Below, one piece after another: positions 1-18,892 of a stretch of DNA of 20,999 nt. The translations under genes were made by a program, and so were the position numbers. Position 1 is the first letter of the stretch; every line of letters begins with the position of its first letter. Source of the stretch: a virus; the IMG/VR virus record IMGVR_UViG_3300023184_007219, positions 1 through 20,999 of that record, one strand, 5' to 3'. The notes under the pieces are model-generated. The model was not told the origin of the DNA. It worked only from the letters and a program-made list of their open reading frames with translations, and searched no databases.

Positions 1-759
1 GACACATTTGAGGCACTATGGCCTGCAGATGTCGCTCTTGTTATATATGCTGAAAATTGCCAACCCCGTACAATTAGACCAAACACCACTGTGATAAATC
101 TTCTGGAGGCCAGTGCAGACTTACGTGTGTTTATTGATCGGCATCGTGACAACCCACTTGCTCATGGTCGTGCTGGGCCTCCCGAGGTATTTGATCCAAA
201 AAAACAATTCCGCTGGGATGCTGTACGGTTTAGCTATAAGGTGTTCTCTGTTGCACATGCTGCAGAACATTTGTCCACTGACTGGATGATATGGATTGAT
301 GCAGATACGCACACACATACTCCTGTGCCGATGTCGGCATTTGATGAGTTATGTCCTGCCACTGCAGGATTAAGCTATCTTGGTCGTGGAGAGAAATATC
401 ACAGTGAGTGTGGTTGGGTAGGCTACAATCTTAATGATCCAGATTGCAAGAAATTTATACAAGAGTTTGTCAATATGTACAAGCAGGATGATATCTTTAA
501 ACTATCCGAATGGCATGATAGTTATGTATGGGATCGAGTAAGAAAGCGTTCATCACCTGCTATATTCCATAATCTCAATCGCCATATGCATGCTAAGAAT
601 CTATCTGGGCATCCGTTTATCAATAGTGCATTGGGGAATTACATGGATCATGCCAAGGGTAACAGGAAAAAATATGGTCATAGTTTATCCACTGATATAC
701 AGCAACATCAAGATCATCCGTATTGGAAACAAATTTTACAATCACAAAAGGCACAATAA
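1..759 (+). CDS. Glycosyltransferase-like protein, 5' end missing
   Basis: The reading frame is open from base 1 and encodes at least 252 residues, so the gene begins left of the window; the GTG at 91 is only an internal codon, because upstream codons read as ordinary protein (ALWPADVALVIYAENC). The segment WMIWIDADTHTHTPV, about residues 95-109 of the visible part, looks like the DxD metal/nucleotide-sugar site of a GT-A glycosyltransferase, with a hydrophobic strand before it. A later stretch, GWVGYNLNDPD, is typical of the acceptor side of such enzymes. The visible part shows no signal peptide or membrane helix. The stop lies 2 bases before the start of the next gene, and all genes from here to 10211 read the same way, which suggests one glycan operon. 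The sugar donor and acceptor cannot be told. The enzyme class is inferred from motifs only. Confidence 0.6.
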   Translation, partial: DTFEALWPADVALVIYAENCQPRTIRPNTTVINLLEASADLRVFIDRHRDNPLAHGRAGPPEVFDPKKQFRWDAVRFSYKVFSVAHAAEHLSTDWMIWIDADTHTHTPVPMSAFDELCPATAGLSYLGRGEKYHSECGWVGYNLNDPDCKKFIQEFVNMYKQDDIFKLSEWHDSYVWDRVRKRSSPAIFHNLNRHMHAKNLSGHPFINSALGNYMDHAKGNRKKYGHSLSTDIQQHQDHPYWKQILQSQKAQ

Positions 760-761
760 TC

Positions 762-1418
762 ATGTATGAATCATATGGTTGGTGGTTTCCGGATACAGAG
801 GATCATTTCCCCAAGATGATTGCCAAGGGTATTTCCAAGGGAGGTCCTGCTGAATATCAATGGCAAGTCAGGGATAAAAGTTTAACACATGTCCGGCAAC
901 GTCGTACTGCGTTGGATATTGGTGCTAATGTAGGGTTATGGAGTCGTAGTTTGATTACCAAATTTGACAAGGTTGTTGGGTTTGAGCCGGTACCAATGTT
1001 CAGAGAATGTCTTGAGAAAAATGTCGTGGGTCAAAACTTCTTTATCAGTCCGGTGGCATTGGGTGATCAAGATACACGAGTTAACATGATCATTACCGAA
1101 GGTAATACTGGGCATACTCACATTGATCCTGCAAGTATTGGTATGGGCAACACTCCGGTGATAAAACTCGACAATCTAGGTATTGATAATGTGGATTATA
1201 TCAAGATAGACTGTGAGGGATATGAATATAGAGTATTGCAGGGTGGTGAACAAACTATACGTTATTGGAAACCAGTGATTGTGATAGAGCAAAAGCCGCA
1301 TGCGGCATATAGCAAAGAGTATGGCCAGTTTGCTGCCATTGAATTATTAGAATCCTGGGGCATGATAAAATTGGATCAAGTGAAAGATGATTGGATTATG
1401 GGTTGGGCTTCTTCTTGA
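762..1418 (+). CDS. FkbM-family SAM-dependent methyltransferase
   Basis: A 218-residue protein starting MYESYGWWF. The ATG at 762 is preferred over an in-frame TTG at 723 because it clears the previous gene and has an AAAGG about 11 bases upstream. Motif I for S-adenosylmethionine binding is ALDIGANVGLW (residues 50-60), followed by the acidic strand end VVGFEPVP (71-78). The stretch VDYIKIDCEGYEYRVLQGG (144-162) is the hallmark of FkbM-type O-methyltransferases, with the KIDCEG/E core. The family methylates hydroxyls on sugars and polyketides, which fits the surrounding glycosyltransferases. The protein is shorter than many members but the fold elements are all present. Its substrate is unknown. 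The stop overlaps the probable TTG start of the next gene. Confidence 0.88.
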   Translation: MYESYGWWFPDTEDHFPKMIAKGISKGGPAEYQWQVRDKSLTHVRQRRTALDIGANVGLWSRSLITKFDKVVGFEPVPMFRECLEKNVVGQNFFISPVALGDQDTRVNMIITEGNTGHTHIDPASIGMGNTPVIKLDNLGIDNVDYIKIDCEGYEYRVLQGGEQTIRYWKPVIVIEQKPHAAYSKEYGQFAAIELLESWGMIKLDQVKDDWIMGWASS

Positions 1419-1993
1419 AAACTTATTATATAAAAGAAAATTACGTACATCGATTAGATAATTTGTTTTATGATGACACCCCAAAAACAGACAAATGGCA
1501 AAAAGAAGTTTATATATTTTCTAAAAAGATTGCGGAAGAAAACAAAATAGAAAATATATTAGATATAGGAACTGGGTCAGGATACAAATTATTAGAAAAC
1601 TTTAAGAATTTTAATACTCTGGGACTGGATCTTGAACAAACCGTAGAATGGCTTAAAAAAACATATCCTGATAGAAAATGGACAAGTAATTTTGAACCTG
1701 TTATTGGCTACGAACTAATAATTGCCTCCGATATTATTGAACACATGCAAGATCCAGATATATTACTAAACTTAATACAAGAGTCGAGTCCAAAATTTAT
1801 TGTTTTTTCGACCCCTGATAGAGATTTATTAAATAGAACGCCCGATGGTCCTCCTAAAAATAGAGAGCATGTTAGAGAGTGGACCATGCCAGAATTTTTT
1901 AATTATATAAATTCCAGATTTGATATTATAGAACATTTTATATCTAATAAAACGCAATCCACTCAGGTAATTTTAGCCAAGATTCGCCGATAA
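1415..1993 (+). CDS. Class I SAM-dependent methyltransferase
   Basis: The frame has no ATG before the conserved core; the TTG at 1415 overlaps the preceding TGA (TTGA) and gives 192 residues. TTG at 1391 or 1403 are alternatives, so the start is uncertain. ENILDIGTGSGYK (about residues 46-58) is SAM motif I, LGLDLE is motif II, and IIASDIIEHMQDPDILL is the post-I region of methyltransferase type 11 proteins. The segment FSTPDRDLLN followed by HVREWTMPEF resembles methyltransferases found in polysaccharide clusters. The gene is visibly richer in A than its upstream neighbours, which hints at separate acquisition. It is coupled on both sides: the next gene starts within its stop codon (TAATG). 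The substrate is probably a sugar or lipid-linked glycan, by context only. Confidence 0.83.
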   Translation: MKTYYIKENYVHRLDNLFYDDTPKTDKWQKEVYIFSKKIAEENKIENILDIGTGSGYKLLENFKNFNTLGLDLEQTVEWLKKTYPDRKWTSNFEPVIGYELIIASDIIEHMQDPDILLNLIQESSPKFIVFSTPDRDLLNRTPDGPPKNREHVREWTMPEFFNYINSRFDIIEHFISNKTQSTQVILAKIRR

Positions 1994-2691
1994 TGAAAAC
2001 GCTCATAATCAGATTAAAGGATAATGCGCTGTCAGAGAGATTGGCTGATGAGTGTATAGAACAGGCAAAGAAATTTAATATATATCCTGAAAAGTTTAAT
2101 GGCATAAATGGTCTCACATATCCGGAACATCTAGACAAGTTAAATATTCGACCATTGAAAAAATTTAAGAAGGGGCGTCCGGGAGTAGTTGGATGCGTAT
2201 TAAGTCATTATTATATTTGGTTGCAATGCCAGGCAGATACAGAATCTTATCTAGTATTAGAACACGATGGCTACTTGATCAAATCTATTCCCAAAGATAT
2301 TGAAGAACAATTCTTGGATATATTGAAATTAGATTTTTTAAATCCCTATAAAATAGACTATACACATAGGATAGAACAGGATGCAAATAATCCAATGGAA
2401 ATAAAAACAGTTGCGCCTGGTGTTGGCACATGCACCGAGGATATGAATCAAGGTGCCGGATGGTATTCAACAGGATCTTATGCTTATATTATCAAACCAC
2501 ATGCCGCTAAAAAACTTGTTGAATGGATTAAAACTAATGGATTTTTACCATCAGACCAGCAATTAGGAAGTTATGCAGCTGATATTAAAATATGTGATCC
2601 AAGTATTGTGCAATTGCATCCTTATTTTTCTCCTGAAGATGGACTAATAAAAGCGATGTCTATGACTATGAATACGGAGTTACTAACATGA
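1993..2691 (+). CDS. Family 25-like glycosyltransferase
   Basis: A 232-residue protein beginning MKTLIIRLKD, with its ATG inside the TAATG overlap with the previous stop. It shows the layout of GT25 (LgtB/Lex2-like LPS glycosyltransferases): an N-terminal strand and 'LxxRL' segment, then GVVGCVLSHYYIW (residues 64-76), the family's G-x-x-G-C-x-x-S-H motif, then YLVLEHDGYL (86-95). In the family this second motif is normally EDD; here it is EHD, so the middle position of the metal-binding triad differs. In GT25 enzymes this domain transfers galactose or related sugars to LPS. The acceptor here is unknown. No membrane segment is seen, so a cytoplasmic enzyme is likely. Confidence 0.72.
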   Translation: MKTLIIRLKDNALSERLADECIEQAKKFNIYPEKFNGINGLTYPEHLDKLNIRPLKKFKKGRPGVVGCVLSHYYIWLQCQADTESYLVLEHDGYLIKSIPKDIEEQFLDILKLDFLNPYKIDYTHRIEQDANNPMEIKTVAPGVGTCTEDMNQGAGWYSTGSYAYIIKPHAAKKLVEWIKTNGFLPSDQQLGSYAADIKICDPSIVQLHPYFSPEDGLIKAMSMTMNTELLT

Positions 2692-3641
2692 AAATACGAT
2701 TTACAAGTAGCAAATATAAAACCAAACGGGCCAGCCACCGTTTGCGTGGTGAAGTAACTTGCAGAGCGTTAGCCGATCAAGGATATGATGCGAAAATATT
2801 AGCAGATTGGAAGGAAGTCGACTCTGATACGTTGGTGATATTTTTAAAACTTAGCCAACCCGAACAGATACAACAGGCCAAAGATCTTGGTGCTAAAACA
2901 GTTTATGACTTATGTGATAATAAATTTGATGAGCAACCAGAGTATGAGCCATGTTGTCGACTTGCTGATGCGGTATCTGTCAATAGTATACAAATGGGAA
3001 TAAGTGTTAAAGAACATACTGGATTGGATGCTATAGTAATGCCGGATCCATATGAAAGGCCAAAACTTGATCCTGCATTCTCCCCAGACAAAGAACTTAA
3101 ATTATTGTGGTTTGGAAGTCAATCGAGTTTTAAATTTTTACCTATTGTAGAAGTATGGCAACGTCTTGAGACAGATATAGGCAAGTATTTTTATACAATG
3201 ATTAGTAGCAAACCCGAAAGATTACTTAGCAAGATGACAAAACGTCAAGATAAAGGTGTAATAAGTGGAGTCAATTTTAATAAACTTGACATGAGAGCAT
3301 GGACTTGGGACTTGCAGGGCGAATTACTTAAAAATTGTGACATTGTATTAATGCCGATACAAACTGATAATCCAAGAACCGATACTAAAAGTGCTAATAG
3401 GGTGATCGACAGTTTAATATCTGGACGATTTGTAATCACCAGTCCACTTGCCAGTTACGAAGAGTTTGCTCCATATACTTGGCAAGGTGATTATATAGAA
3501 GGAATTAAGTGGGCTTGTGCTAATCCCACTAAAGTGGTTGAAATGATCACTGCCGGACAGAAATACACAGAAGAACATTACTCAGCACAGATGTTAAGTA
3601 AACAATTCGTCGATAATATTATAACACAAGTGAAGAAATGA
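2688..3641 (+). CDS. GT-B fold glycosyltransferase, GT4-like
   Basis: 317 residues, starting at an ATG that overlaps the previous stop (ATGA) and is preceded by GGAG with an 8-base spacer, a good ribosome site. The N-terminal half has the alternating strand/helix pattern of a GT-B domain, with SHRLRGEVTCRALADQGYD near residues 16-34. The C-terminal half holds LKLLWFGSQSSFKFLP (137-152) and then LLKNCDIVLMPI (213-224) and SANRVIDSLISGRFVITSP (235-253), the donor-nucleotide side of GT4-like enzymes (many have a Glu near here; this one reads RVIDSLISG). Family knowledge: retaining transferases using nucleotide-sugars. The specific sugar is unknown. It sits between a GT25-like gene and a methyltransferase in the same coupled run. 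Confidence 0.75.
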   Translation: MKIRFTSSKYKTKRASHRLRGEVTCRALADQGYDAKILADWKEVDSDTLVIFLKLSQPEQIQQAKDLGAKTVYDLCDNKFDEQPEYEPCCRLADAVSVNSIQMGISVKEHTGLDAIVMPDPYERPKLDPAFSPDKELKLLWFGSQSSFKFLPIVEVWQRLETDIGKYFYTMISSKPERLLSKMTKRQDKGVISGVNFNKLDMRAWTWDLQGELLKNCDIVLMPIQTDNPRTDTKSANRVIDSLISGRFVITSPLASYEEFAPYTWQGDYIEGIKWACANPTKVVEMITAGQKYTEEHYSAQMLSKQFVDNIITQVKK

Positions 3642-3642
3642 T

Positions 3643-4236
3643 ATGGCCACACTAAATGAATTGCTATACATAAAACAAGTTTGCCCCAAGATAAATGGTC
3701 CGGTGCTTGAGATAGGTGCTCTACTCACTGCAGGATATCGTGAATTGTTTGCGCCACAAGGATTTGAATTTATCACGACTGATCTCGAAGACTCTACTCC
3801 ACCAGGACGAATTGATGTTATTTGTGATCTTACAACTCCAGAAAATCCACTACCTAAGAATTATTTTGATCTTGTGCTATGTTGTAGTGTGATGGAACAT
3901 GTTCCCAATCCATGGGTTATGGCAGAGAAAATATCTGAAGTAGTTCGCCCTGGTGGGAAGTTATATATTTCAGTGCCTTGGGTATGGAAATATCATGGCT
4001 ATCCAAAAGATTATTATAGATTTACCTATTCAGCAATACAATATCTATATCCGGCATTTGAGTGGGATCACTTTGCTTGGTCAAGTAAAACAGAAGGGGA
4101 TATTCTATTTCAGGATATGAACAATATCACTGATCGTAGTTTTGCACATATTGAATTTGGTGCTGATGGGATCGAGACTAAAAAATATCTTAAATATTTA
4201 AATAGCAATATGCTTGGGACTAAAAAACATGCTTAA
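3643..4236 (+). CDS. Class I SAM-dependent methyltransferase (type 11)
   Basis: 197 residues, starting one base after the previous stop. VLEIGALLTAGYR (residues 21-33) is SAM motif I in which the usual G-x-G-x-G is reduced to GALLTAG. Next come ITTDLED (acidic strand end), YFDLVLCCSVMEHVPNP (74-90) and VVRPGGKLYISVPWVWKYHGYPKDYYRFT (100 onward). The last element, a proline-rich 'VPW.W..HGYP.DYYRFT' stretch, is typical of methyltransferases of capsule and LPS clusters, where it probably shapes the acceptor site. Its end overlaps the start of the next methyltransferase by 8 bases. The methylated position is unknown. Confidence 0.85.
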   Translation: MATLNELLYIKQVCPKINGPVLEIGALLTAGYRELFAPQGFEFITTDLEDSTPPGRIDVICDLTTPENPLPKNYFDLVLCCSVMEHVPNPWVMAEKISEVVRPGGKLYISVPWVWKYHGYPKDYYRFTYSAIQYLYPAFEWDHFAWSSKTEGDILFQDMNNITDRSFAHIEFGADGIETKKYLKYLNSNMLGTKKHA

Positions 4237-4795
4237 TAACAAGGTGCAAGAACTTATTCAACAAGGATTGCCTGTTAAACTGCATCTTGGCTGCTGTAAT
4301 AGATATTTTGATGGATATGTAAATATTGATGGTGAATACATGAAGGACGATCCCAATGTAATCATACATGATATCACCACTGTATTTCCTATTCCCGATA
4401 ATAGTGTGGATGAGATATTAACTGTTCATGTTATTGAACATATAGATCGTTGGGCTATAGAGGATACACTCACCGAATGGCATAGAATCCTACGTCCGGG
4501 TGGACAACTGTCTACCGAGTGGCCGGATCTGTTAAAGGCATGTCTACAAATTGCAAAAGATCCAAGTAGTTTATTAGAAACTCAATCAAGAGAGAATAAA
4601 AGAGTAACAAAACATACTATGCATGTGATTTATGGTAATCCTAGATTTAAACATAAGGCAATGACACATGCATGGGGATATAGCATAGATTCTCTAATAG
4701 AGCTAATGAAGAAAATCGGATTCTCCTCTGTCACTGCCGAAGAAAATTTATACAGAAAAACCCCAAACGACAGCAGAGTAGTTGCTGTAAAATAA
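4229..4795 (+). CDS. SAM-dependent methyltransferase, tandem copy A
   Basis: 188 residues from MLNNKVQELI. The ATG at 4229 aligns exactly with the start of the next gene's product; an in-frame TTG at 4214 is less likely. KLHLGCCNRYFDGYVNID (about residues 17-34) is SAM motif I of the group that reads 'LHLGCG...GYVNID'. VDEILTVHVIEHI is the post-I strand and RILRPGGQLSTEWPD is the following loop. The Cys-Cys in LGCCN replaces the usual LGCG, so the central glycine of the SAM loop is changed. The protein is a close paralogue of the product of 4812-5366, and the pair arose by tandem duplication. A role in methylating the glycan made by the cluster is inferred from context. Confidence 0.85.
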   Translation: MLNNKVQELIQQGLPVKLHLGCCNRYFDGYVNIDGEYMKDDPNVIIHDITTVFPIPDNSVDEILTVHVIEHIDRWAIEDTLTEWHRILRPGGQLSTEWPDLLKACLQIAKDPSSLLETQSRENKRVTKHTMHVIYGNPRFKHKAMTHAWGYSIDSLIELMKKIGFSSVTAEENLYRKTPNDSRVVAVK

Positions 4796-4811
4796 TTTAT
4801 GGAGATTAAAA

Positions 4812-5366
4812 ATGCTTGAAAATAAAATACAAGAAATCATACAACAAGGGCTTCCTCTTAAATTACATCTGGGCTGTGGCCCTGTGATTTTTGATGGATA
4901 TGTAAATATTGATGGAAATGAATCTAGTAATCCCGATTCCTATGTTCATGATGTTTCTTTGGCATTTCCTATCCCTGATAATAGCGTGGATGAGATACTA
5001 ACTGTACATGTTATTGAACACATTGATAGACGAGACATAGAACAAATCTTTAAAGAATGGATTAGGATACTTAAACCCGGTGGGATAGTAGCAACAGAAT
5101 GGCCCGATATGCTCAAGGTATGTAAGGAGATTGTTGCTAACCCAGAAGTGCTGTGGAGTACTGATAGGGCGGAGATGAAACGAACTATGTATCTTCTGTT
5201 TTCTAATACTATTAGATACAAAGATCCTGCAATGCGGCATGTTTGGGGATATAGTGAAGAAAGTCTTGGCAAGAAATTTCTCGAGCATGGATTTTCTTCG
5301 TGGAAAGCCGAAGATAATTTGCATAGAAAAACAACAAATGATAGCAGAATTGTTGCATACAAATAA
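4812..5366 (+). CDS. SAM-dependent methyltransferase, tandem copy B
   Basis: 184 residues, preceded by GGAG at 4801-4804 with a 7-base spacer, one of the clearest ribosome sites in the plus-strand run. It matches the previous gene along its whole length, with an identical core of more than 20 residues around IPDNSVDEILTVHVIEHIDR and the same ends (NKxQExIQQGLP; NDSRxVAxK). Unlike copy A it keeps the standard KLHLGCGPV SAM loop (residues 17-25). KPGGIVATEWPDML is the following loop. The two proteins differ mostly after residue 35 and in the central third, where the acceptor site would lie, so they may act on different positions of the same glycan (inference). Confidence 0.86.
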   Translation: MLENKIQEIIQQGLPLKLHLGCGPVIFDGYVNIDGNESSNPDSYVHDVSLAFPIPDNSVDEILTVHVIEHIDRRDIEQIFKEWIRILKPGGIVATEWPDMLKVCKEIVANPEVLWSTDRAEMKRTMYLLFSNTIRYKDPAMRHVWGYSEESLGKKFLEHGFSSWKAEDNLHRKTTNDSRIVAYK

Positions 5367-5367
5367 C

Positions 5368-6111
5368 ATGGTCGCTAAGATAGTCAAAGAATTCTACGGA
5401 TTTTCGGGTAATCAAATATTCCTAATGCACGAAAACGATCGATTATTTGTACGCAAGATAGGTAATATATCTAGAAATATTGAACGCATGCAAGCATTAT
5501 GTAATGATTACCCTGTTCCTCAATTATATGCGGTATCAACTAATTTGGTTGATATGGAATACATACATGGACTAGATATCAAATTATATCTAGCGACACA
5601 TAACTATGAGAAATTACTAGATTTTTTACTTTGTATACTTGGGCAATTTTGCAAAAACTCTGTGGATAAAGATTATACACAAACATACATAAAAAAATTA
5701 CAAGAAGTCAATTTTGATTGCCTTCCGTTTACTGCCGAACAACTACTAGAACGTTTGCCAAAGAAATTACCTGCTTCAAACTATCATGGTGATTTAACAT
5801 TAGAGAACATCATCTATACTGCAGATAGAGGATTTTTTTTAATAGATTGTGCAACAATAGAATACGATTCCTACATCTTCGATATTGCTAAATTGCGACA
5901 AGATTTAGAACTTGGATGGTTTACTAGAAAAACCTATCCTATGCTGGACGTTAAAATCAAACATATACAACAGAAAATATTAGAAACTTACCCATTAGCC
6001 GATAATAATTATTTACTGATCTTAATGTTGTTAAGAGTATTACGCCACAGCCAACCAAAAACCCTTGAGAGAACATTTTTACTAGAAGGAATTAAATCAT
6101 TATGGAAATAA
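5368..6111 (+). CDS. APH/choline-kinase-like phosphotransferase
   Basis: 247 residues from MVAKIVKEFYG, one base after the previous stop; longer in-frame starts (5239, 5338) lie inside the preceding gene and are rejected. YHGDLTLENII (139-149) is the catalytic loop of the aminoglycoside-phosphotransferase/choline kinase group (His140, Asp142, Asn147), and FLIDCATIEYDSYIFDIAKL (157-176) holds the metal-binding Asp160 in the place of DFG. LFVRK with Lys30 may be the ATP-binding lysine. Such kinases phosphorylate choline, ethanolamine or sugar hydroxyls. The next gene encodes a nucleotidyltransferase, so the two look like a kinase-activating enzyme pair of the LicA-LicC kind (inference). The end overlaps the next gene by 10 bases. 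Confidence 0.8.
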   Translation: MVAKIVKEFYGFSGNQIFLMHENDRLFVRKIGNISRNIERMQALCNDYPVPQLYAVSTNLVDMEYIHGLDIKLYLATHNYEKLLDFLLCILGQFCKNSVDKDYTQTYIKKLQEVNFDCLPFTAEQLLERLPKKLPASNYHGDLTLENIIYTADRGFFLIDCATIEYDSYIFDIAKLRQDLELGWFTRKTYPMLDVKIKHIQQKILETYPLADNNYLLILMLLRVLRHSQPKTLERTFLLEGIKSLWK

Positions 6112-7124
6112 TAATGCCAGCTGTTGGATTATCGACAAGATTTCCTAACATGCGACCAAAATATACATTGACAGACTTTTCTGGCAAGATGATGTTTGAG
6201 CGATCTTTAGAATCCTTCATCGGTAAACATAATATTACTATTGGTATTTTGCAAGAACACAACGATAAGTATCATATCTCAGATTATATTAAAAGTGAGT
6301 ATGGAAATGCCATTAAAGTTGTTGTAATAGCACAGCCAACCGCAGGACCCGCAGATACTGTTTATCAAATGTTAAACCGTACCGGATTGACGCATGAAGA
6401 ATTTTTGATCAAAGATTGTGATAGTTTTTTTAATCATGATTATGAGTTAGGAAATTATATATGTGTCTCCAACATTAATGATCATGCAATATTAAAAAGA
6501 TTAGGATCTAAAAGTTTTATTGTATCAAACAATCAAGGAATTGTTACCAGTATTGTTGAAAAGCAAGTGGTATCTAACAAGTTTTGTGTCGGTGGCTACA
6601 AATTTGAATCAGCTAACCTGTTTATGTCTGTATTTGATAAATTAACAAACGTACCAGTTAAGGAAATGTTTGTAAGTCATGTGATTGAAGAATGTCTGAA
6701 TTTAGGAGTTATTTTTAAAGAAAGCGCAGTACGTAATTATGTTGATGTTGGTACTGCTGAAGAATGGTTTGAATACAATGACAAATCTGTTATTTTCTGT
6801 GATATTGATGGCACTATAATCAAAGCTCAATCCAAGACAGAGATGAACTCAACCCCAATTGCATTAGAAAAAAATATTAAGGCAATCAAACGTCTATTAG
6901 ACGCTGGTGGAGAAATAGTTTTTACAACTGCTCGATCCACTCAGTATCATTCTATAACAGAAAACATGTTGTTTGATCTAGGCTTTACTAATTTTAAATT
7001 GTTATCTGGATTGTCTAATGCCAAACGCATATTAATCAACGACTACAATGAAGCAAATCCTTATCCTAGGGCTATTGCTATCAATTTAAAAAGAGATTGT
7101 GATAGCCTTGGAGATTATTTATGA
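6102..7124 (+). CDS. Nucleotidyltransferase fused to a HAD-family phosphatase
   Basis: 340 residues with two domains. Residues 1-225 form a nucleotidyltransferase of the sugar/choline-phosphate type: PAVGLSTRFPNMRPKY (6-21) is a variant of the G-x-G-T-R-F...PK signature, FLIKDCDSFF (101-110) gives the D-x-D metal site, and the domain closes with YVDVGTAEEWFEYN. Residues 229-340 form a HAD-like domain: IFCDIDGTII (231-240) is motif I, VFTTARST (273-280) is motif II, and AKRILINDYN (307-316) contains the later lysine and acidic residues. The same pairing occurs in capsule gene clusters, where the HAD part is usually a phosphatase or regulatory domain. A run of AGAAGGA lies 11 bases before the ATG. 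The substrate is unknown; a phospho-head-group from the upstream kinase is the simplest guess. Confidence 0.84.
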   Translation: MEIIMPAVGLSTRFPNMRPKYTLTDFSGKMMFERSLESFIGKHNITIGILQEHNDKYHISDYIKSEYGNAIKVVVIAQPTAGPADTVYQMLNRTGLTHEEFLIKDCDSFFNHDYELGNYICVSNINDHAILKRLGSKSFIVSNNQGIVTSIVEKQVVSNKFCVGGYKFESANLFMSVFDKLTNVPVKEMFVSHVIEECLNLGVIFKESAVRNYVDVGTAEEWFEYNDKSVIFCDIDGTIIKAQSKTEMNSTPIALEKNIKAIKRLLDAGGEIVFTTARSTQYHSITENMLFDLGFTNFKLLSGLSNAKRILINDYNEANPYPRAIAINLKRDCDSLGDYL

Positions 7125-7837
7125 AACCAAAAATTGCGTTATTTTATATAGGACAAAAAAGATATGTTGAAATGGGTGAAAAAAATCATAAAAAATTAAT
7201 TTCAGAATTAGAAAAAATTGCCCTTGTAACAATATATAATTTTACACGTGATCTAGACCAACCAAGTGCCAGCCCTTGGCCGCAAGGAGGCGCAATACAA
7301 GTTTTTGAATTCTTAGAGAGCATAGAAAAAATTGAAGAAGATATTGTGATAAAACTCCGGACTGATCTCTGGTTTACCAATAGTGCTATTTTTGCATTGG
7401 TCGAGGAAGTTAGGTTGGTCTGCGAAAATAAACAAGATGCCACATTTATGACATGTAATTTAAGAGATTACCTTGGGCATACGTACACTAAAGATCCGAT
7501 TGATTTGCACCCGATACCTGGAGATTTTGTTGTGCTTGTTAATAAAAAGATATTGCGAAATAAAGAAGAAATATACAAGAGTATTGACAATCTCTCGCCA
7601 AAGAAACGCGAGGGCGGAAATAAGCCATTTGGGGCAATAATAAAAGACCGTCAACAAACATACAATGTTCATTCGCAAATCTATCTAATTAGAAAACATC
7701 TTGATGACCCATTTGATCCTTGGCAGGTAGGATACGATTATATTTCTACAGAAGTCAGCAAATTTGGGCATAAAATGCCCGATGCAATGCCGTGGTACTT
7801 AACAACAAAGGCAATGGTCAATGAATACAAAATCTAA
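7121..7837 (+). CDS. WavE-like LPS/glycan synthesis protein
   Basis: 238 residues. The start overlaps the previous stop (ATGA) and has GGAG at 7110-7113 with a 7-base spacer. The protein begins with a Rossmann-like strand (KIALFYIGQKRY) and carries DIVIKLRTDLWF (about residues 74-85), which resembles the 'K-x-R-x-D' strand of WavE-type lipopolysaccharide synthesis proteins, themselves GT-A-like. PIPGDFVVLVNKKIL and FGAIIKDRQQTYNVHSQIYLIRKHL further along fit the later part of such a fold. The assignment is weak at family level; a glycosyltransferase role rests on this motif plus the neighbours. The C-terminus overlaps the next gene by 17 bases. Confidence 0.55.
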   Translation: MKPKIALFYIGQKRYVEMGEKNHKKLISELEKIALVTIYNFTRDLDQPSASPWPQGGAIQVFEFLESIEKIEEDIVIKLRTDLWFTNSAIFALVEEVRLVCENKQDATFMTCNLRDYLGHTYTKDPIDLHPIPGDFVVLVNKKILRNKEEIYKSIDNLSPKKREGGNKPFGAIIKDRQQTYNVHSQIYLIRKHLDDPFDPWQVGYDYISTEVSKFGHKMPDAMPWYLTTKAMVNEYKI

Positions 7838-8816
7838 ACCATTACTTGTATTATACCATGTTCCGTATCAGACTTGGTCGTTTTTTCATGATGATTGGTT
7901 TAAATCTATTGTTGATGATTATTTTAACATAGAACATTACGACGAAACTAAAACTTATTCTGATGATACTACATTTCTAACTGGATGTAATGTGTATATT
8001 GTTCCTGAACATAGAAATAAATTTATCGATAGAAAATTAATCGTTGATGCCACCTGGGAAAGTTTTGTAGGTAAGTGGGGAAAGATATATCCGTCAAGGT
8101 CGGATAGACACCATTTTATATACGGCAATCACTCAACTGAGGCGGTAGACAATGTGATTTTTGTTCCTAACTTCTTTTGGTATCAATTTAGTCTTTGGTG
8201 GCAAACTAGAGAAATGTATCCTTATATGCCCAATAGAACATATAATAAAAAGTTTTTAATGCCGATAGGACATCGTAGAGGTTGGAGAGACGAAGTATTA
8301 AATGCAGTAGACCCATGGCTATCCGAGTCTTTGTGGAGTTGTATATCAAACGGACAGCATCTACCTGAACCTGTTGTTCATTCAGGAAAACGTATGGATT
8401 GGACATATTCAAATCCTGATTGGTATGATCAAACTTGTTACAGCATAGTACTCGAAACTGCAAAAAAATGGGAGTGGATGTCTTTATTCCTAACTGAAAA
8501 AACTTATAAACCATTGGCATTTAAACATCCATTTATGCTTATGAGTGGAGTGGGCGCACTTGCATATTTAAAATCCCAAGGGTTTGAAACCTTTGATAAT
8601 ATATTTGATGAAAGCTATGATACTACCGATGTATTTCAGGACAAACTAAATATCATACTTAATAATGTTATAAACTTTAAAGGCGCACCATTTGATCAAG
8701 AAACTATTAGGCGAACCGAACATAATTATAACTTATTCTATAACACAGATAGAATACTGTCAGGATTGAAAGAAGAACTAATAAATCCTATCTTAGAATT
8801 TATAGAGAGAAAATAA
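7821..8816 (+). CDS. Glycosyltransferase, GT10/fucosyltransferase-like C-terminal half
   Basis: 331 residues; AAAGG at 7807-7811 with a 9-base spacer supports the ATG. FLTEKTYKPLAFKHPFMLM (223-241), followed by YLKSQGFETFDNIFDESYD (249-267), is the nucleotide-sugar binding region of an exostosin/alpha-1,3-fucosyltransferase-like GT-B fold: the pattern 'TEKT-x-K-P-x-A-x-x-x-P-F' with a later 'LG(F)xTFxxxxDESYD' recurs in phage and bacterial surface-glycan enzymes. The N-terminal half has alternating strands (PLLVLYHVPY, VYIVPEH, KLIVDATWE, VIFVPNFFW) consistent with the acceptor domain. A deoxy-hexose donor would fit the RmlD/GalE-like enzyme at 9420, but that is inference. There are no membrane segments. 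Confidence 0.75.
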   Translation: MNTKSKPLLVLYHVPYQTWSFFHDDWFKSIVDDYFNIEHYDETKTYSDDTTFLTGCNVYIVPEHRNKFIDRKLIVDATWESFVGKWGKIYPSRSDRHHFIYGNHSTEAVDNVIFVPNFFWYQFSLWWQTREMYPYMPNRTYNKKFLMPIGHRRGWRDEVLNAVDPWLSESLWSCISNGQHLPEPVVHSGKRMDWTYSNPDWYDQTCYSIVLETAKKWEWMSLFLTEKTYKPLAFKHPFMLMSGVGALAYLKSQGFETFDNIFDESYDTTDVFQDKLNIILNNVINFKGAPFDQETIRRTEHNYNLFYNTDRILSGLKEELINPILEFIERK

Positions 8817-8820
8817 ACAC

Positions 8821-9423
8821 ATGCCATCAGAATATTATTCACAAAGTGTAGAGTTGGGTCGAGAGTTTCAACGAAATAATCCTAAAAACTGGGCCGGCAA
8901 AGATAGCAAAAATTATCACAATCAAATACGTGCTCTTATGGATCGATACAATGCTAAGTCAGTCTTGGACTATGGCTGTGGTAAAGGAAATCAATACACT
9001 AATATGGAATGTTATACTGCTGCCGGTGCTCTACCAGGAGTACATACTGAACCTATGACATTCCAAACTCGAATAAATGCAGAATCGGTTTATAAATTTG
9101 ATCCGTGCGTGGAGGAATTTAACATAGAACCTGTTGGGCAAAAATTCGATGCTGTTATTTGTACACAAGTGCTAGGCAGTATTCCTGATGTTGACATCTC
9201 CTGGATCAAAGATAAGTTTATGAACTACGCAACTAAATTTGTTTTTATCGGGATGCATAGTGCTATACCCAAGAGTAAGAAACGCATATATGATACAACC
9301 CATGTTGATATGTATAGAACTGTAGATTGGTATATGGAGCAATTTAGTAATTGGTCAGGTCCTGATCTATATTGGTGGTTTAGATATACAGAACACAAAT
9401 GCAATGATTGGTATAAACTATGA
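8821..9423 (+). CDS. Class I SAM-dependent methyltransferase
   Basis: 200 residues beginning MPSEYYSQSVELG, 4 bases after the previous stop. The N-terminal KNWAGKDSKNYHNQI precedes SVLDYGCGKGNQY (47-59), the SAM-binding motif I in the 'DYGCGKG' form often seen in phage-encoded methyltransferases. KFDAVICTQVLGSIPDVDISWI is the motif IV-like region, in which the usual 'EH' is replaced by 'GS'. The tail is very aromatic (WYMEQFSNWSGPDLYWWFRY) and probably contributes to substrate binding. It is the fifth and last methyltransferase of the plus-strand run. The start codon of the next gene overlaps its stop (ATGA). Confidence 0.82.
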   Translation: MPSEYYSQSVELGREFQRNNPKNWAGKDSKNYHNQIRALMDRYNAKSVLDYGCGKGNQYTNMECYTAAGALPGVHTEPMTFQTRINAESVYKFDPCVEEFNIEPVGQKFDAVICTQVLGSIPDVDISWIKDKFMNYATKFVFIGMHSAIPKSKKRIYDTTHVDMYRTVDWYMEQFSNWSGPDLYWWFRYTEHKCNDWYKL

Positions 9424-10211
9424 TTACGTTAATTGGGCACGGCTATGTTGGTAAGCACATCAAAAAAGAATTAGAATATCAAAAGATCGATCACCAATGG
9501 ATTTCGCATTATGAGCGAATACCAGCAGCCACCACTGTTATTATTAATGCTGCTGGATATACAGGAAGTCCTAATGTTGATGCTTGTGAGATCTATAAAC
9601 AAGAAACAATAAACGGTAATGTTATATTTCCAATACAATTAGAAGAGACTAATAAAAATATTCCTATTGTGCATATTACCAGTGGCTGTGTCTATACCGG
9701 ATATAAAGATAACGGATGGACTGAAGATGACACACCGAATTTTACTTTTAATAATGGTTCTTTTTACAGTGGATCTAAAGCACTGTTACAAACACTGATG
9801 ACCCCGTATTATGATAAATCTTATCTACTAAGGATTAGGATGCCATTTGGTGATGATCATGATCCTAAAAATATTTTCACAAAACTTTCTAATTACCAAA
9901 AACTTATTGATTATGAAAATTCATTTAGTTATGTAGTTGATGTGGCCAGGGTGGCTATTTACTTTGCTCTTAATAGGCCGGCGGGTGGGATTTATAATGT
10001 GTGTAATCCCGGATCAGCAACCACTAAACAAGTGGCAGATAAACTACAATTACAAAAAGAATGGTTTACTAAAGAAGAATTCAATGCGGCCACTGTAGCA
10101 CCAAGATCTAACTGTGTGTTAAATATCGATAAATTATCTGCGATATATCCGTTGCAGAATGTGACCGCTGCGTTAGATACTGCTATAGAAAAATTACAGC
10201 AAGTAAGGTAA
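9420..10211 (+). CDS. NAD(P)-dependent sugar epimerase/dehydratase or reductase (extended SDR)
   Basis: 263 residues. LIGHGYVGKHI (4-14) is the N-terminal G-x-G-x-x-G nucleotide site; IINAAGYTG (41-49) holds the conserved N-A-A-G; HITSGCVYTG (86-95) supplies the catalytic Ser88; and YSGSK (116-120) is the Y-x-x-x-K pair. MPFGDDHDPKNIFTKL and YNVCNPGSATT are typical late elements of RmlD/GalE-like proteins. The length is nearer to RmlD-type dTDP-4-dehydrorhamnose reductases and the bifunctional epimerase/reductases than to GalE (about 330 residues). The likely role is to make a deoxy- or epimerised nucleotide-sugar for the glycosyltransferases of the cluster. It is the last plus-strand gene, and its end overlaps the end of the convergent gene by 18 bases. 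Confidence 0.85.
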   Translation: MITLIGHGYVGKHIKKELEYQKIDHQWISHYERIPAATTVIINAAGYTGSPNVDACEIYKQETINGNVIFPIQLEETNKNIPIVHITSGCVYTGYKDNGWTEDDTPNFTFNNGSFYSGSKALLQTLMTPYYDKSYLLRIRMPFGDDHDPKNIFTKLSNYQKLIDYENSFSYVVDVARVAIYFALNRPAGGIYNVCNPGSATTKQVADKLQLQKEWFTKEEFNAATVAPRSNCVLNIDKLSAIYPLQNVTAALDTAIEKLQQVR

Positions 10212-11099
10212 GAATTTTTTATAGATAAGGCCTTGCTGACTTTCTTCATCGGTCCAATGGCAAGCAGCAAGATCATGTAACCACTGTGTTCTATCCGGAT
10301 ATACAGGATTAAGTAGCGTGCTGATGTCTGTTTGCGCTACTGTACGGCATACACTACTTGGATCATCGATCCACAGTGGAACTCCGTACAATAATGCTGC
10401 CACACCACTGCTGCTATTAAACACAAAAGCACACTGAGCATGTTTTAGATCTGCTTGCAATGATCGAGTTGCACTATCGCTTATAGTAATTCCTGGCGCG
10501 GCAAGATGTGTAATATCGCTAATTTTTCCTGGGTGAGGACGCAATACAATAGGCTGATTGGTATATTGACGTATCGCTTTGATTTTTTCTTGTGTCCAGG
10601 ATACTGGATCTTGTCCTTTCATACCAAACCCACCATTGCGTTGTAACAGCAATAGGATATAATCGCCGGCAGTTTTCCACTCTCGTACTGTTGCTCCGAT
10701 GGTATGTGATAGTTGATTCCACTTGGTACCATCAGCATTTTTGTTTGCATATTCTCCAGTATCGTAATATGGACTGTTGATGCTATAACGTAGATATTGA
10801 CTGGTTTGGTCTAGGAATTTAAAACAGCTTCCATCAATGCACATGGTATAGTTATGTTGTTGCTGTTGTTTAGCAACTATCTCTGCACGTAGTTTAATGT
10901 TTGGAGAAGTTTGTTCAGGGCTTGGCCAGCCCAATATTACTGCCAGTTTAGATGGTGTATATACATACTTTGTTTCTATATGCACCGTTGCACCTGCCTG
11001 TTTGGCACCATTGGCAAATGCCAACAGCACTTCTAATTTTCTACTAGGAGTTTGTTTTAATATAGAACTTAGATATACTATAACATCAGGCATTTTCAT
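10194..11099 (-). CDS. Capsule polysaccharide (KpsC-like) transferase domain protein
   Basis: 301 residues from MKMPDVIVYL; an ATG two codons later is also possible. IVLRPHPG near residues 184-191, followed by DLKHAQCAFVFNSSSGVAALLYGVPLW, is the KpsC/KpsS-like pattern (R-P-H-P then S-S-x-x-x-x-A-L-x-x-G-x-P) of beta-Kdo transferases and related capsule proteins. GDYILLLLQRNGGFGM precedes it as the first strand of that half. The C-terminal part matches the end of the next gene's product, including a late W-x-x-x-L-A-x-C-x-(W/F)-T-(D/E) motif, so the two are paralogues. The start overlaps the end of the upstream gene by 14 bases, indicating coupling. The donor sugar is unknown, and Kdo is not proven. 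Confidence 0.72.
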   Translation of the reverse strand: MKMPDVIVYLSSILKQTPSRKLEVLLAFANGAKQAGATVHIETKYVYTPSKLAVILGWPSPEQTSPNIKLRAEIVAKQQQQHNYTMCIDGSCFKFLDQTSQYLRYSINSPYYDTGEYANKNADGTKWNQLSHTIGATVREWKTAGDYILLLLQRNGGFGMKGQDPVSWTQEKIKAIRQYTNQPIVLRPHPGKISDITHLAAPGITISDSATRSLQADLKHAQCAFVFNSSSGVAALLYGVPLWIDDPSSVCRTVAQTDISTLLNPVYPDRTQWLHDLAACHWTDEESQQGLIYKKFLPYLL

Positions 11100-12729
11100 T
11101 TAGTATCTGCCAAGCAAATCCGTTTTTCATATCAACTTCAGTGAATTGACAATAAGCCAAATGTGCTGCCCATTCTTCAACTTGGTCTAAGGTAGGAATA
11201 AATGGATTTTCGATATCTTTGCAATCGTTACTGCATACCGAATGAGCTGCACTTGGTCCCAGCACAATTGCAGGTTTTCCCAACAGCACCGCTTCTACTG
11301 CTGCAATGCTCGAAAAGGTAACTAGACAATGTATGTCACGTTCAAGGGCCATTTCCATTGTGTCTGTTGTAACTCTTGCAGTGCGTCCGACCTTCTCTCG
11401 AATGATAATATTCCTGTCTGTGTACAATTGTAATCTATCCTTTGTTTCATGCACCCAGGTATCGAGATCCAGATCATAAACAGCTAATAATTTCTGACTA
11501 GGGGGTGTTAACAAAATGTTTGCTCCCCCTTTAAATTTCCTTGCACGATACTTGGTTGCTGCCAGGCGGTCGCGTGGACGTGATATTACCGGCCCCAAAT
11601 TCTGCATATCATTTTTAGTTATCCTGTGATAGATTTTTTTACTAACGTTACCAAAATATCCAGTGTCGATATAATAGAAATCTCGGTTGGCCTGTCTACA
11701 CGCTTCCATATGTTTTCTTTTTGTCACGCCGCGAAGTACCAGTGGCACCGTGGAATCTTTAACTTGATCCCATACTGTAATCTGTCCACCCGATCCCTGG
11801 ATGAAACTTGCCAGGTAAGGATCATACTCTGCTCCTTTGCTTTGTTGTTTGTTATTGGTGTCTGACATGGTATCTGCCTCTACCGCAAATGCGGCTTGAT
11901 TGTTCATGGTCACAAGTGTCTGATTAATTCTACCTATCGTATCTGCATAATACTGTTCCTGCGGATCGATTCGATATTTTAATATATCATCAAACAATGC
12001 TGTTATTTCGGGAGTAACTGTCTCAAATCTTGAAGGTAATGGTTTAGGTATTAAACTGGTTTTCCATTCATGATAAGCATTGGCCCATTGAGCACCGTAT
12101 TCGGTTTTTTCATAATTAGGAAACCAAGGACCACCTTCGGTATAATGCAATGCTTTGGGTGTGCCGTCGGCTGGTTCGTGATACCAGTTTATCAACCAAT
12201 TCCATGTTTTATCTAAACTATCGATGTTCTCGGTCCATTCTAATCTATGTAGATATGCTCCTGATTCGGAGTTGACTACTTCTGCTGTCAGTTGTTGAGT
12301 ATCAGGATGACTGCAATTAAACAGCATCAGGCTACTCCAATTTTTTCTTGGATATTGATGTTGGACTTTGCCATCCATTTTGATCGTGTTGGTTGGGACA
12401 TAATCGTGTTGTACAACACTAACTGCTATTTCATCTTTAATTTGTTGGAATAGTTCTCTTATGTCGTGCGTGAACAGGAAATCACAATCGACAAATATTG
12501 CCCATCCTTTGTAATCACATAAGTGTGGCACAAGGAATCGAGTGAATGTAAATTCTGTGGCGGCCTCTTCATCTATTTCTCTGGTATAGATACCTTTATC
12601 ACGCAAGTCTTGTTGCTTGAGCATGTGTATTTCAACTGTTATAGTGGCATGTTTGAGTATGCTATGTTTGCATACCTCTGCCACTTCGGCTTCACGGGGA
12701 TCCCATCCGATAAAAATCTTAAATGTCAT
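11086..12729 (-). CDS. Two-domain glycosyltransferase: GT8-like plus KpsC-like
   Basis: 547 residues. Residues 1-230 form a GT8-like domain: KIFIGWDPREAEVAEVCKHS at the N-terminus, AIFVDCDFLF with the D-x-D at 81-83, KNWSSLMLFNC (129-139), and HYTEGGPWF (195-203), the conserved 'H-x-T-x-G-G-P-W'. A polar linker follows, and residues 305-540 resemble the KpsC-like protein encoded downstream: FYYIDTGYFG, then DIHCLVTFSSIAAVEAVLLGKPAIVLGPSAAHSVC (465-499) and EEWAAHLAYCQFTE near the end. An internal Met at 288 (base 11868), starting the linker, suggests that two genes fused here. The start overlaps the cupin gene's stop (ATGA). The fold of each half is clear; the sugars are not. Two transfers by one chain are inferred. 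Confidence 0.8.
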   Translation of the reverse strand: MTFKIFIGWDPREAEVAEVCKHSILKHATITVEIHMLKQQDLRDKGIYTREIDEEAATEFTFTRFLVPHLCDYKGWAIFVDCDFLFTHDIRELFQQIKDEIAVSVVQHDYVPTNTIKMDGKVQHQYPRKNWSSLMLFNCSHPDTQQLTAEVVNSESGAYLHRLEWTENIDSLDKTWNWLINWYHEPADGTPKALHYTEGGPWFPNYEKTEYGAQWANAYHEWKTSLIPKPLPSRFETVTPEITALFDDILKYRIDPQEQYYADTIGRINQTLVTMNNQAAFAVEADTMSDTNNKQQSKGAEYDPYLASFIQGSGGQITVWDQVKDSTVPLVLRGVTKRKHMEACRQANRDFYYIDTGYFGNVSKKIYHRITKNDMQNLGPVISRPRDRLAATKYRARKFKGGANILLTPPSQKLLAVYDLDLDTWVHETKDRLQLYTDRNIIIREKVGRTARVTTDTMEMALERDIHCLVTFSSIAAVEAVLLGKPAIVLGPSAAHSVCSNDCKDIENPFIPTLDQVEEWAAHLAYCQFTEVDMKNGFAWQILNENA

Positions 12730-13082
12730 TGTTTTTGCTCACGATATCCCACAGTTTCTCGTTCGATATCATTGTGATCAAACTCTGCCCAATATAGCTC
12801 AAATGCAACGCAATCTTCAAGAGCTTCAAATTGATGGTATTCGCCAGGAGCAACTTTTGTATATTGTCCTGCTGTTAGTATAGTTTCATCGATTAAATCG
12901 TAGTTACCTTTCCACACACGGATAATCATTCGGCCAGATTCAACAAAGAATCCATTCCATTTAAACTTGTGCTTATGCTTTGAGCAAGTACCACCTGCTG
13001 CTGCTTCAATGCGATGAAATTCCAATACACCATTGGCTTCAAGCAGTTCGGTTTGTCCCCATACTTTTCCAAATTTACTCAT
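12726..13082 (-). CDS. Stand-alone cupin, mannose-6-phosphate isomerase-like
   Basis: 118 residues from MSKFGKVWGQTELL. An upstream in-frame ATG at 13112 would add an unlikely basic stretch inside the previous gene, while 13082 overlaps its stop (TAATG). The two cupin motifs are visible: CSKHKHKFKWNGFFVESG (33-50, with His36, His38 and Glu48) and AGQYTKVAPGEYHQFEA (71-87, with His83), together giving a 3-His/1-Glu metal site. The end, HNDIERETVGYR, mirrors the 'E-D-D-I-x-R...Y-G-R' tail of type II phosphomannose isomerases. It is therefore a relative of the cupin half of the preceding protein. It might isomerise or bind a sugar-phosphate; enzyme activity is inferred. Confidence 0.78.
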   Translation of the reverse strand: MSKFGKVWGQTELLEANGVLEFHRIEAAAGGTCSKHKHKFKWNGFFVESGRMIIRVWKGNYDLIDETILTAGQYTKVAPGEYHQFEALEDCVAFELYWAEFDHNDIERETVGYREQKQ

Positions 13083-13846
13083 TATTTTCTTTCTATATCG
13101 TCTTCGGCACAATTGTCGCCGTATTGTATTTCAATTAATTTCAATGGCAACAAGGTTTCGTTGGCCAATTGATGCCAATCATTGTTGGCTATCCATAAGT
13201 TTTGATGCTCGGTAAATTTGCCAGTTAGCTCGGTATCAGTTTTCCTATTGATGCCGTATACTGTGGCTTCGCCTTCTGTGACAAACCAAAATTCAGCACG
13301 ATTAATATGTCGTTGCATGCTTAGTCGCTGTCCAGGCTCTACCGTAAGTTCTTTAAGTTTGACTCTGGGTGCAGCTTCATGCAGCACACGGTAATAACCC
13401 CACGGACGTAGTGTTTTTGGGGCGCGCCATTCCTGCAGGATCCAGCTACTGGAATTCATTTTGTTGTCACCACCTACGCCGAACGCAAATTCTAGATTAT
13501 GATCAACAATGCTCATTTCGGGGATATTTTCTCTTGTTCTATCACCACCATTTGCAAAGATAATGTTGTCAGTTGGATAGCTTTGCCTAGTCATCCTAAT
13601 AGCATCACATGCTGAATTATCTGAATCGTCGAAGCCGATAACAAAATCTACGCCTTGGATACTTTTTATAATAGCAAGGCGTTCGTGTAAGGGCATGAAT
13701 GCTCGTCCTTTTTTTCGAACCAGCCATTCATCGCTGTTTACAGCCACTACAAGTATATCACCAAGCTGTTTTGCGGCTTGTATGTAGGCAATATGCCCAC
13801 TGTGAATGGGATCATACCCACCCGAAATTAGAATAATTTTCTTCAT
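13082..13846 (-). CDS. HIGH-type nucleotidyltransferase fused to type II phosphomannose-isomerase cupin
   Basis: 254 residues, two domains. Residues 1-136 are a nucleotidyltransferase of the RfaE/TagD type: GGYDPIHSGH (9-18) is the H-x-G-H site, and NKMNSSSWI (128-136) corresponds to the second 'K-x-S-S-T' motif. Residues 145-252 are the cupin half of a type II mannose-6-phosphate isomerase: RPWGYYRVL, PGQRLSMQRHINRAEFWFVTEG (171-192), NNDWHQLAN and LIEIQYGDNCAEDDIER. In bacteria that cupin usually sits behind a GDP-mannose pyrophosphorylase domain (ManC), so this partner is unusual. The likely role is to make and activate a sugar-phosphate, perhaps a heptose or mannose derivative (inference). 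No ribosome site precedes the ATG; a palindrome abuts it at 13848-13876. Confidence 0.85.
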   Translation of the reverse strand: MKKIILISGGYDPIHSGHIAYIQAAKQLGDILVVAVNSDEWLVRKKGRAFMPLHERLAIIKSIQGVDFVIGFDDSDNSACDAIRMTRQSYPTDNIIFANGGDRTRENIPEMSIVDHNLEFAFGVGGDNKMNSSSWILQEWRAPKTLRPWGYYRVLHEAAPRVKLKELTVEPGQRLSMQRHINRAEFWFVTEGEATVYGINRKTDTELTGKFTEHQNLWIANNDWHQLANETLLPLKLIEIQYGDNCAEDDIERK

Positions 13847-13888: not shown

Positions 13889-14341
13889 TTATACGGTGTA
13901 GTCTTCCATTCCTGCAGATTTAAGTCTAACTAGATGCCCTAGCATGAAATTCTTTGATTCAAGGGCCTTGAGAATTCCTAAGAATTGATTACGTAATAGT
14001 GCAACAGAATTGATAATAGTTTCAAAATCAATCACTTCATCCTCACCATCTACATATTTTTCAGCATCGCGGCTGGTAAGTGCTCGAGCATATCCTTCAA
14101 GATATTTTTGGAAGTGTTTGCGACGTATTTTACGTAATTGTATGTTTAAATGATTGAGTACTGCTTCTACTTCTTGCAACTGATTAAATCGTTGTTCTGT
14201 AATGCCGGGCAAGGCGGTGATGTTTTTTTCTATTACACCACCCACCCTGCAATCTCGTTTAGCATCTGCCAGTTCAATTTCGTAATAGGATATGAAGTCT
14301 GGGATTTGACTTAGATCAGCAACAACACGGCTATACCACAT
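13889..14341 (-). CDS. uvsY: UvsY-like recombination mediator
   Basis: 150 residues, close to the 137 of T4 UvsY. The protein is mostly helical and charged. The middle third, LTSRDAEKYVDGEDEVID (88-105), followed by LLRNQFLGILKALESKNFMLGHLVRLKSAG (115-144), parallels the T4 C-terminal half, where the pattern 'W-G-I-L...A-L-x-x-I-x-S-R-G-F-x-x-x-H-x-x-x-x-R' is recognisable. In T4, UvsY loads UvsX onto gp32-coated single-stranded DNA, and both partners are encoded just upstream here, which supports the call. The ATG directly follows the previous stop (TAA ATG), with GGA 7 bases before it. The identification rests on remembered similarity and context; a short-protein homology search would settle it. 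Confidence 0.74.
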   Translation of the reverse strand: MWYSRVVADLSQIPDFISYYEIELADAKRDCRVGGVIEKNITALPGITEQRFNQLQEVEAVLNHLNIQLRKIRRKHFQKYLEGYARALTSRDAEKYVDGEDEVIDFETIINSVALLRNQFLGILKALESKNFMLGHLVRLKSAGMEDYTV

Positions 14342-16857: not shown

Positions 16858-17776
16858 TTCTTCCTTTAAAATAATTTATTAATGTTACATTATTATCCAA
16901 CAAATAGCAACCTGTTGTGTTCCAATGTAGTGTTCTTGGATTAATCTTGAAATATTTGCAGCTTTTAGCTATTACCATTGCCTTTTCCCATACAGCAAGA
17001 TCCACTGGCTGTTCTTTAAAATTAAGTATGTCTACCACAGTGGTTTTTATTTTAGATAGCCAATCAAAGTAACTTTGATTTATATGTAGTATCCAACTAT
17101 GAATTTCGTTACTTTTGGCCTGATCCCATGTCCACTTGGGAAACACACTAATTATTTTTTGTTTAAGTAAATCTACATTGTTAGCAAAATAATCACCTAG
17201 TGGGTAAAACAAAGAATTAGGATAATTTGATTTTATTGATATCTCCCACTCATCGTAGTAGGTAATAGATAAAAATTCTAATAATTTTAAATCATTTGTT
17301 AATTTGAATGTTACTGGTTGTTGATATGATTCATGAATTTCCTGTTGTATGTTGCTTGGTAAGTATTTTACATTGTCATACGTATTACACATTGGCCAAG
17401 TTGAATCTTTTACTTTAATATAATAATCATTCCATAATGCATTATTATTTGCGCATGATGATAATGTAAAAAATTTATGTATATTATCTAGTCTTGGTTC
17501 ATCGTTAGTCCATTTACTAAATCCCATCTTTCGTCTTAGCAGTTCGTTCCAACCGTCTGGATACAGTTCTACAATACAAGTTAAATTTGGATCAGGAAAT
17601 TCTATTAGATGTGCTGCAATAAGTTGAGTTCTGTTTAGTGTAGTAATATTATGTGCGTTACCTGAAGTAGAAAAAAAGTTTGAAAAATCAATATCAATTT
17701 GTCCGCAGGAATACAACACATGAGTCAGAACTGCGTTACCTAACCCCCCGTTGCGATAATCGATACAATATCTCAT
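16838..17776 (-). CDS. Protein of unknown function between gene 32 and uvsX
   Basis: 312 residues from MRYCIDYRNGGLGNAVLTHVLY. The first motif, RNGGLGNAVLTHV, recalls the 'G-G-L-G-N-Q' nucleotide-sugar loop of GT11 fucosyltransferases, but nothing else in the chain supports that, so no function is assigned. The protein is rich in Asn, Trp and Tyr (SYFDWLSKIK, WTWDQAKSNEIHSW), has no membrane segment, and shows no metal-binding cluster. It is clearly AT-rich compared with gene 32 and uvsX on either side. No Shine-Dalgarno is seen; a perfect hairpin lies 12 bases before the ATG. The overlap with uvsX suggests co-translation. It looks like an accessory gene placed in a conserved operon. Confidence 0.75.
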   Translation of the reverse strand: MRYCIDYRNGGLGNAVLTHVLYSCGQIDIDFSNFFSTSGNAHNITTLNRTQLIAAHLIEFPDPNLTCIVELYPDGWNELLRRKMGFSKWTNDEPRLDNIHKFFTLSSCANNNALWNDYYIKVKDSTWPMCNTYDNVKYLPSNIQQEIHESYQQPVTFKLTNDLKLLEFLSITYYDEWEISIKSNYPNSLFYPLGDYFANNVDLLKQKIISVFPKWTWDQAKSNEIHSWILHINQSYFDWLSKIKTTVVDILNFKEQPVDLAVWEKAMVIAKSCKYFKINPRTLHWNTTGCYLLDNNVTLINYFKGRNDGQTI

Positions 17777-18797: not shown

Positions 18798-18835
18798 AAT
18801 AATTTCTCCTTGTAATATGCCTATGTAATGCCTAA

Positions 18836-18885: not shown

Positions 18886-18892
18886 TGAAACA

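Follow-up and report, generated by a model that had tools for sequence, protein, structure and literature searches.

A phage-borne island of putative glycan-assembly genes at a fixed but variable uvsY–uvsW site in uncultivated T4-like phages

Results

The window, by which we mean the whole stretch of DNA analysed, is an entire IMG/VR contig (IMGVR_UViG_3300023184_007219) of 20,999 bases that is classed as linear, and a megablast search of all of it against named phages gave no match. Positions 1–13846 hold 18 tightly packed open reading frames (g01–g18), 14 on the plus strand and four on the minus strand, as originally predicted. This island comprises seven glycosyltransferase-like (GT) genes and six methyltransferases, together with two genes for nucleotidyltransferase fusions and one each for a kinase, an RmlD-like reductase, and a cupin. 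The original prediction of at least seven glycosyltransferase-like proteins thus holds, with g11 and g12 counted among the seven by position alone, while the predicted methyltransferases (at least five) are present but number six by Pfam matches above the curated cut-off (g02, g03, g06, g07, g08, and g13). Starts were corrected for two genes (g02 to 762, g09 to 5368), and g01 is cut by the contig start, the island ending at position 1 in the window with uvsW not reached. The gene assignments are not due to chance, judging by E-values far under thresholds and by the many intact, same-order homologs that most of the genes have.

The truncated g01 (1–759, +) is a GT-A-like glycosyltransferase with a DxD motif (D100/D102) conserved in an alignment of 20 homologs; it has no family match of its own, and 13 of the 20 family members weakly match Glycos_transf_2 (GT2). 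Farther along the same strand are g04 (1993–2691, +), of the GT25 family (PF01755, Pfam 1.8e-12), and g05 (2688–3641, +), a GT-B, GT4-like enzyme according to an AlphaFold model (pLDDT 92.7) and Foldseek, in which the best PDB matches were BshA, SenB, PimA, and WaaG (E 1e-10 to 1e-8) and the predicted fold has the twin Rossmann domains of GT-B enzymes. Two putative glycosyltransferases, g11 (7121–7837, +) and g12 (7821–8816, +), are without significant family matches and are assigned by conserved syntenic position and by syntenic homologs in the related loci L005, L017, and L019, respectively; g11 family members likewise gave no GT match in Pfam. On the minus strand, structure and profiles indicate that the core gene g16 (11086–12729, −) fuses a GT8-type GT-A domain to a DUF6716-like GT domain. 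Residues 1–227 of its model resemble 3tzt (Z 17.6), in keeping with a GT8-type GT-A fold, with D81-C-D83 (DxD) invariant among aligned homologs; the C-terminal half has a weak match to DUF6716, a family of putative glycosyltransferases, and the whole predicted model is of moderate confidence (pLDDT 68). The adjacent g15 (10194–11099, −), a DUF6716/capsule-type GT-like protein, is homologous to this C-terminal half (hhalign 98.1%, E 1e-13). Profile searches of the PDB returned nothing useful for g01, g05, and g16 and only weak, unrelated-looking matches for g15 and g11.

The methyltransferases include an FkbM-family member, g02 (762–1418, +; PF05050, 7e-17), and two Methyltransf_23 members, g03 (1391–1993, +; PF13489, 1e-9) and g13 (8821–9423, +; PF13489, 3e-6, 27.4 bits against a cut-off of 27). 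Methyltransf_11 accounts for g06 (3643–4236, +), which is 96% identical to its homolog in L007/L017, and for the paralogs g07 (4214–4795, +) and g08 (4812–5366, +), which share 59% identity. Among 160 related loci, none has a homolog of g03 (E 1e-5), whereas neighbouring genes are represented there; g03 may be a recent acquisition or may have diverged fast. Near the glycan genes of two relatives (L045:11408–12787, L039:16184–17470) we noticed by eye an adenosylhomocysteinase-like gene, which would recycle SAH from methylations.

Genes for sugar activation and conversion complete the island. The APH-type small-molecule or sugar kinase g09 (5368–6111, +; PF01636, 2e-6) has a GD(x)4N motif and D160 invariant across 17 homologs, and the core gene g10 (6102–7124, +), of a phage-specific family, fuses a nucleotidyltransferase to a HAD phosphatase, the motifs of both being invariant in the homolog alignment. 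This g09–g10 pair also occurs in a second viral group (L049–L081, e.g. L065:9252–11029) beside other GT- and methyltransferase-like genes, without most of the other island genes. At the far end, the core gene g18 (13082–13846, −), adjoining uvsY, joins an HldE/TagD-type nucleotidyltransferase (cytidylyltransferase), with HxGH invariant in the homolog alignment, to a cupin like type II mannose-6-phosphate isomerases, and next to it lies the cupin g17 (12726–13085, −, start approximate; PHROG 7851). The RmlD-like NDP-sugar reductase g14 (9420–10211, +; PF04321, 2.5e-8) is the only sugar-converting oxidoreductase, and no dehydratase is present, so the pathway would probably have to draw on NDP-sugar pools of the host, and the set may be less complete than first suggested.

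To the right of the island the window holds, in order, UvsY, a radical-SAM gene, a gene of 85 aa, UvsX, a gene of 312 aa, a gp32-like gene, and one for a 667-aa protein. As predicted from the start, the island thus adjoins T4-type recombination genes: UvsY (13889–14341, −; PHROG 231, 2e-13), which forms its phage-side border, the UvsX recombinase (15787–16857, −; PHROG 97, 2e-66), and a gp32-like ssDNA-binding protein (17841–18893, −; PHROG 1192, 5e-65). The radical-SAM gene (14342–15526, −), between uvsY and the 85-aa gene that adjoins uvsX, is found in some relatives only, and gene content marks this spot as a second variable site beside the island. The 312-aa gene (16838–17776, −), between uvsX and gp32, has no family match and only two homologs in related loci.

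A search for UvsW and UvsY over 30 contigs located the island of relatives between uvsY and uvsW; both genes were present on 18 contigs, all colinear. The gap between them measured 2,250 bases (no island), 6,442 bases (where none of the window's island genes was matched), and then 7,297–19,404 bases, with a median of 13.7 kb. L113, a relative that lacks the island, has after uvsY a methyltransferase-like gene, then a protein of PHROG 1250, and then a helicase of PHROG 16 that we read as UvsW. Of 16 loci with at least 8 kb past uvsY, 14 carry one or more island-type genes and 13 carry three or more, a count confined to UvsX-found loci since L002–L081 were found via g10 and are biased to contain it. 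Such gene sets are therefore less exceptional than first supposed, and comparable clusters have been described from cyanophages and pelagimyophages (PMC3037559, PMC7029224, PMC7824862). With a gene order common to dozens of viral contigs, the comparison indicates a site that is fixed but variable in content in an uncultivated T4-like lineage, most relatives carrying differing sets.

The phage origin of this pathway-sized set, as originally predicted, is borne out by its flanks and by related contigs. The T4-type Gp23 capsid gene occurs on G014, G017, and G019; the first and last of these carry the T4 portal as well, and also have the uvsY site. Beside uvsY, G014 has homologs of g18, g16, g15, and g02, while on G019 (182 kb) other glycosyltransferases come after a homolog of g18. 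The uvsY–uvsW site of G019 (L154:13305–20255) holds a largely different set that includes two PHROG 1962 glycosyltransferases. UvsX relatives have the same arrangement as the window, and the nearest isolate UvsX proteins belong to jumbo phages, among them Phosso, CBB, GAP32, and Atu_ph07 (65–68%); the island's carriers appear to be T4-like phages, as yet uncultivated. The sheath family PF04984 had no match on any of 20 contigs, and tail genes were thus not placed.

If the set were a host locus for O-antigen or capsule, misassembled beside phage genes or captured with them, the enzyme classes by themselves would be compatible, but such a locus would have bacterial chromosomal flanks and a flippase and polymerase or ABC exporter together with an initiating PNPT. 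The window's island has none of these membrane functions, Wzx and Wzy included, and in place of the bacterial core genes that would have told against the original reading its flanks are UvsY, UvsX, and gp32, with uvsW on the far side in relatives; the uvsY border is identical in dozens of independent contigs. Moreover, g10 has at least 80 homologs in viral contigs, while 84,980 bacterial and archaeal genomes gave only distant matches, the best full-length one at 24%. We rejected the host-locus explanation on this conserved synteny and consider it scarcely credible; by its genomic context, the island is phage-borne.

Neighbouring genes differ sharply in their similarity to the same relatives: adjacent window genes are 80, 96, 97, 57, 72, and 78% identical to those of L007/L017, and of the tandem paralogs g07 and g08 (4214–5366), g07 is 97% identical to the L007 gene and g08 57%. 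Such unequal identity to one relative, 97% beside 57%, indicates cassette exchange at the island. Median pairwise dN/dS values were 0.05–0.17 for the 16 island genes with usable pairs (g03, without homologs, and g17, without a usable pair, were left out, and g07 and g08 pairs overlap because the paralog queries draw the same relatives), compared with 0.026 for uvsY, 0.065 for uvsX, and 0.13 for gp32 in the flank. These values point to strong purifying selection on the island genes. Functionless packaging filler DNA, an explanation weighed for cyanophage LPS clusters (PMC3037559), would account for gene content that differs greatly among relatives, some of which have only 2–6 kb at the site. 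The purifying selection is strong, however, with dN/dS well below 1, the reading frames are intact, and the catalytic residues do not vary, and we rejected filler as very improbable.

A hydropathy scan, in which control proteins of E. coli K-12 (flippases, polymerases, and WcaJ) showed 5–9 transmembrane (TM) segments, detected no Wzx-, Wzy-, or PNPT-like membrane protein in 49 islands (496 kb, 637 ORFs), so the original prediction that no Wzx/Wzy-like protein is present extends well beyond the window. None of the 18 window genes was of TM type; g16 scored 1.64 against a threshold of 1.6, yet its N-terminus is predicted to be a soluble GT8-type fold. The single genuine membrane gene in the 49 islands (L006:5757–6446, L010:13241–13930) has seven TM segments and is TerC-like by eye, and one more short match among the 637 ORFs is apparently spurious. 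With no such membrane protein in 49 islands, the phage would supply soluble enzymes only.

Discussion

The island in the window is a large run of glycosyltransferase, sugar-nucleotide, and methyltransferase genes in a T4-like phage, which is what defines the LPS-type clusters of such phages. P-SSM2 and S-SSM7 likewise have runs on a 15-gene scale of glycosyltransferases, methyltransferases, and nucleotide-sugar enzymes, and the main P-SSM2 cluster, like the window's island, is without membrane proteins (no TM segments). That comparison concerns one P-SSM2 cluster, near hli03 (hli03/phoH), as opposed to uvsY–uvsW in the window, and its enzymes are non-homologous to ours save that the FkbM protein weakly matches two from P-SSM2 (E 1e-4 at best); P-SSM2 also has several nucleotide-sugar epimerases, where the window has one RmlD-like reductase and the kinase and nucleotidyltransferase fusions. 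Among isolates, the closest homologs of g01, g15, and g16 (27–38%) stand in a row with two methyltransferases in a mini-cluster of Pelagibacter phage Mosig EXVC030M, but this set is far smaller, lies beside RuvC/RNR genes, and has g16 as two adjacent genes, and no homolog of g10 or g05 was found in the pelagimyophage comparison. Caulobacter jumbo phages (CcrColossus, CcrSC, and others) also have both halves of g16 (about 31%) as two adjacent genes, and several have an FkbM homolog (33%), as in the window; they belong to Dolichocephalovirinae, not to a T4-like family, and the glycosyltransferases of CcrColossus come after tail genes, unlike the recombination flank here. The kind of cluster is thus known from P-SSM2, S-SSM7, and pelagimyophages, while our comparisons indicate a different insertion site, enzyme set, and phage lineage.

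Beyond the observed gene content, location, site, exchange, selection, and lack of membrane proteins, we infer substrates, product, and acceptor from the domains. The kinase g09 may phosphorylate a sugar or alcohol, and g10 and g18 would convert phosphorylated precursors to nucleotide-activated donors, which g14 and the cupins may then adjust. Seven soluble glycosyltransferases would assemble a short oligosaccharide, and up to six methyltransferases would cap or decorate it. Because all of these steps would use soluble enzymes, the chain probably grows in the cytoplasm on an acceptor that is soluble or provided by the host, and the lack of a membrane step narrows the mechanism to soluble assembly of this kind. 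We give about an even chance to the reading that this is a phage-encoded glycan-assembly island at the fixed, variable uvsY–uvsW site, with a virion protein as the most likely acceptor and host LPS or O-antigen precursors as the other.

For the acceptor itself, a phage virion protein has a slightly better than even chance. We prefer it slightly because assembly would be wholly soluble, because the g16 homologs of CcrColossus sit shortly after tail genes, and because soluble phage glycosyltransferases glycosylate the capsid and tail-tube proteins of the mycobacteriophages Che8, Corndog, and Myrna (PMC12363180). Those phages have one or few glycosyltransferases and a proven acceptor, whereas the window has a multi-GT island and a predicted acceptor. 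We also counted in favour of the virion that pelagimyophage glycosyltransferases sit among tail-fibre genes (PMC7029224); against it counts that the GT genes on G014 and G019 are not beside virion genes, the capsid and portal lying about 42–55 kb away (capsid 42–51 kb).

Host LPS is nearly as likely a target as a virion protein. The enzymes may modify LPS-core or O-antigen precursors in the cytoplasm for export by the host, the altered surface then blocking superinfection, a proposal whose likelihood we place somewhat short of even. Surface change is what is usually proposed for P-SSM2 and pelagimyophages and is favoured in the literature on pelagimyophages (PMC7029224) and jumbo phages (PMC7824862). 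GT25, FkbM, RmlD, HldE-type nucleotidyltransferase, and GT8 enzymes all fit LPS or capsule synthesis, cassette exchange is compatible with serotype-like diversity, and LPS-core glycosyltransferases are likewise soluble, making the absence of membrane proteins compatible with this target. Weighing against it, however, are the absence of a flippase, polymerase, PNPT, or exporter from the 49 islands and the papers we consulted on these phages, in which we found no experimental support and of which PMC3037559 gives the function as unknown.

The glycan may instead be placed on phage DNA bases, a hypermodification that would protect against restriction and for which T4 and phages with elaborate DNA glycans are precedents. 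Recombination genes adjoin the island, and multi-GT sets can hypermodify DNA (Pyle 2024, as cited in PMC12619734), but we found no base hydroxymethylase of the thymidylate-synthase fold (PF00303) on 20 partial contigs and no C5 DNA methylase (PF00145) on 17 partial contigs, including the 182 kb one, with bacterial controls matched in both searches. A TET search carries no weight, its control being itself silent. On this gene content, DNA glycosylation is unlikely.

Returning to the virion protein as acceptor, particles would leave the cell with a variable methylated glycan coat. That a lineage of uncultivated T4-like phages may coat its virion proteins with its own O-methylated, cassette-diversified oligosaccharide, using soluble enzymes only, is a proposal we make tentatively and would sooner bet against than on. 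Purifying selection in any case argues against filler, a possibility raised for such clusters in PMC3037559, and islands can be compared at a defined place, the fixed uvsY–uvsW site, of which an empty form (2.25 kb) exists. If the proposal is true, this dedicated, recombination-adjacent uvsY–uvsW locus would be the phage counterpart to a serotype locus.
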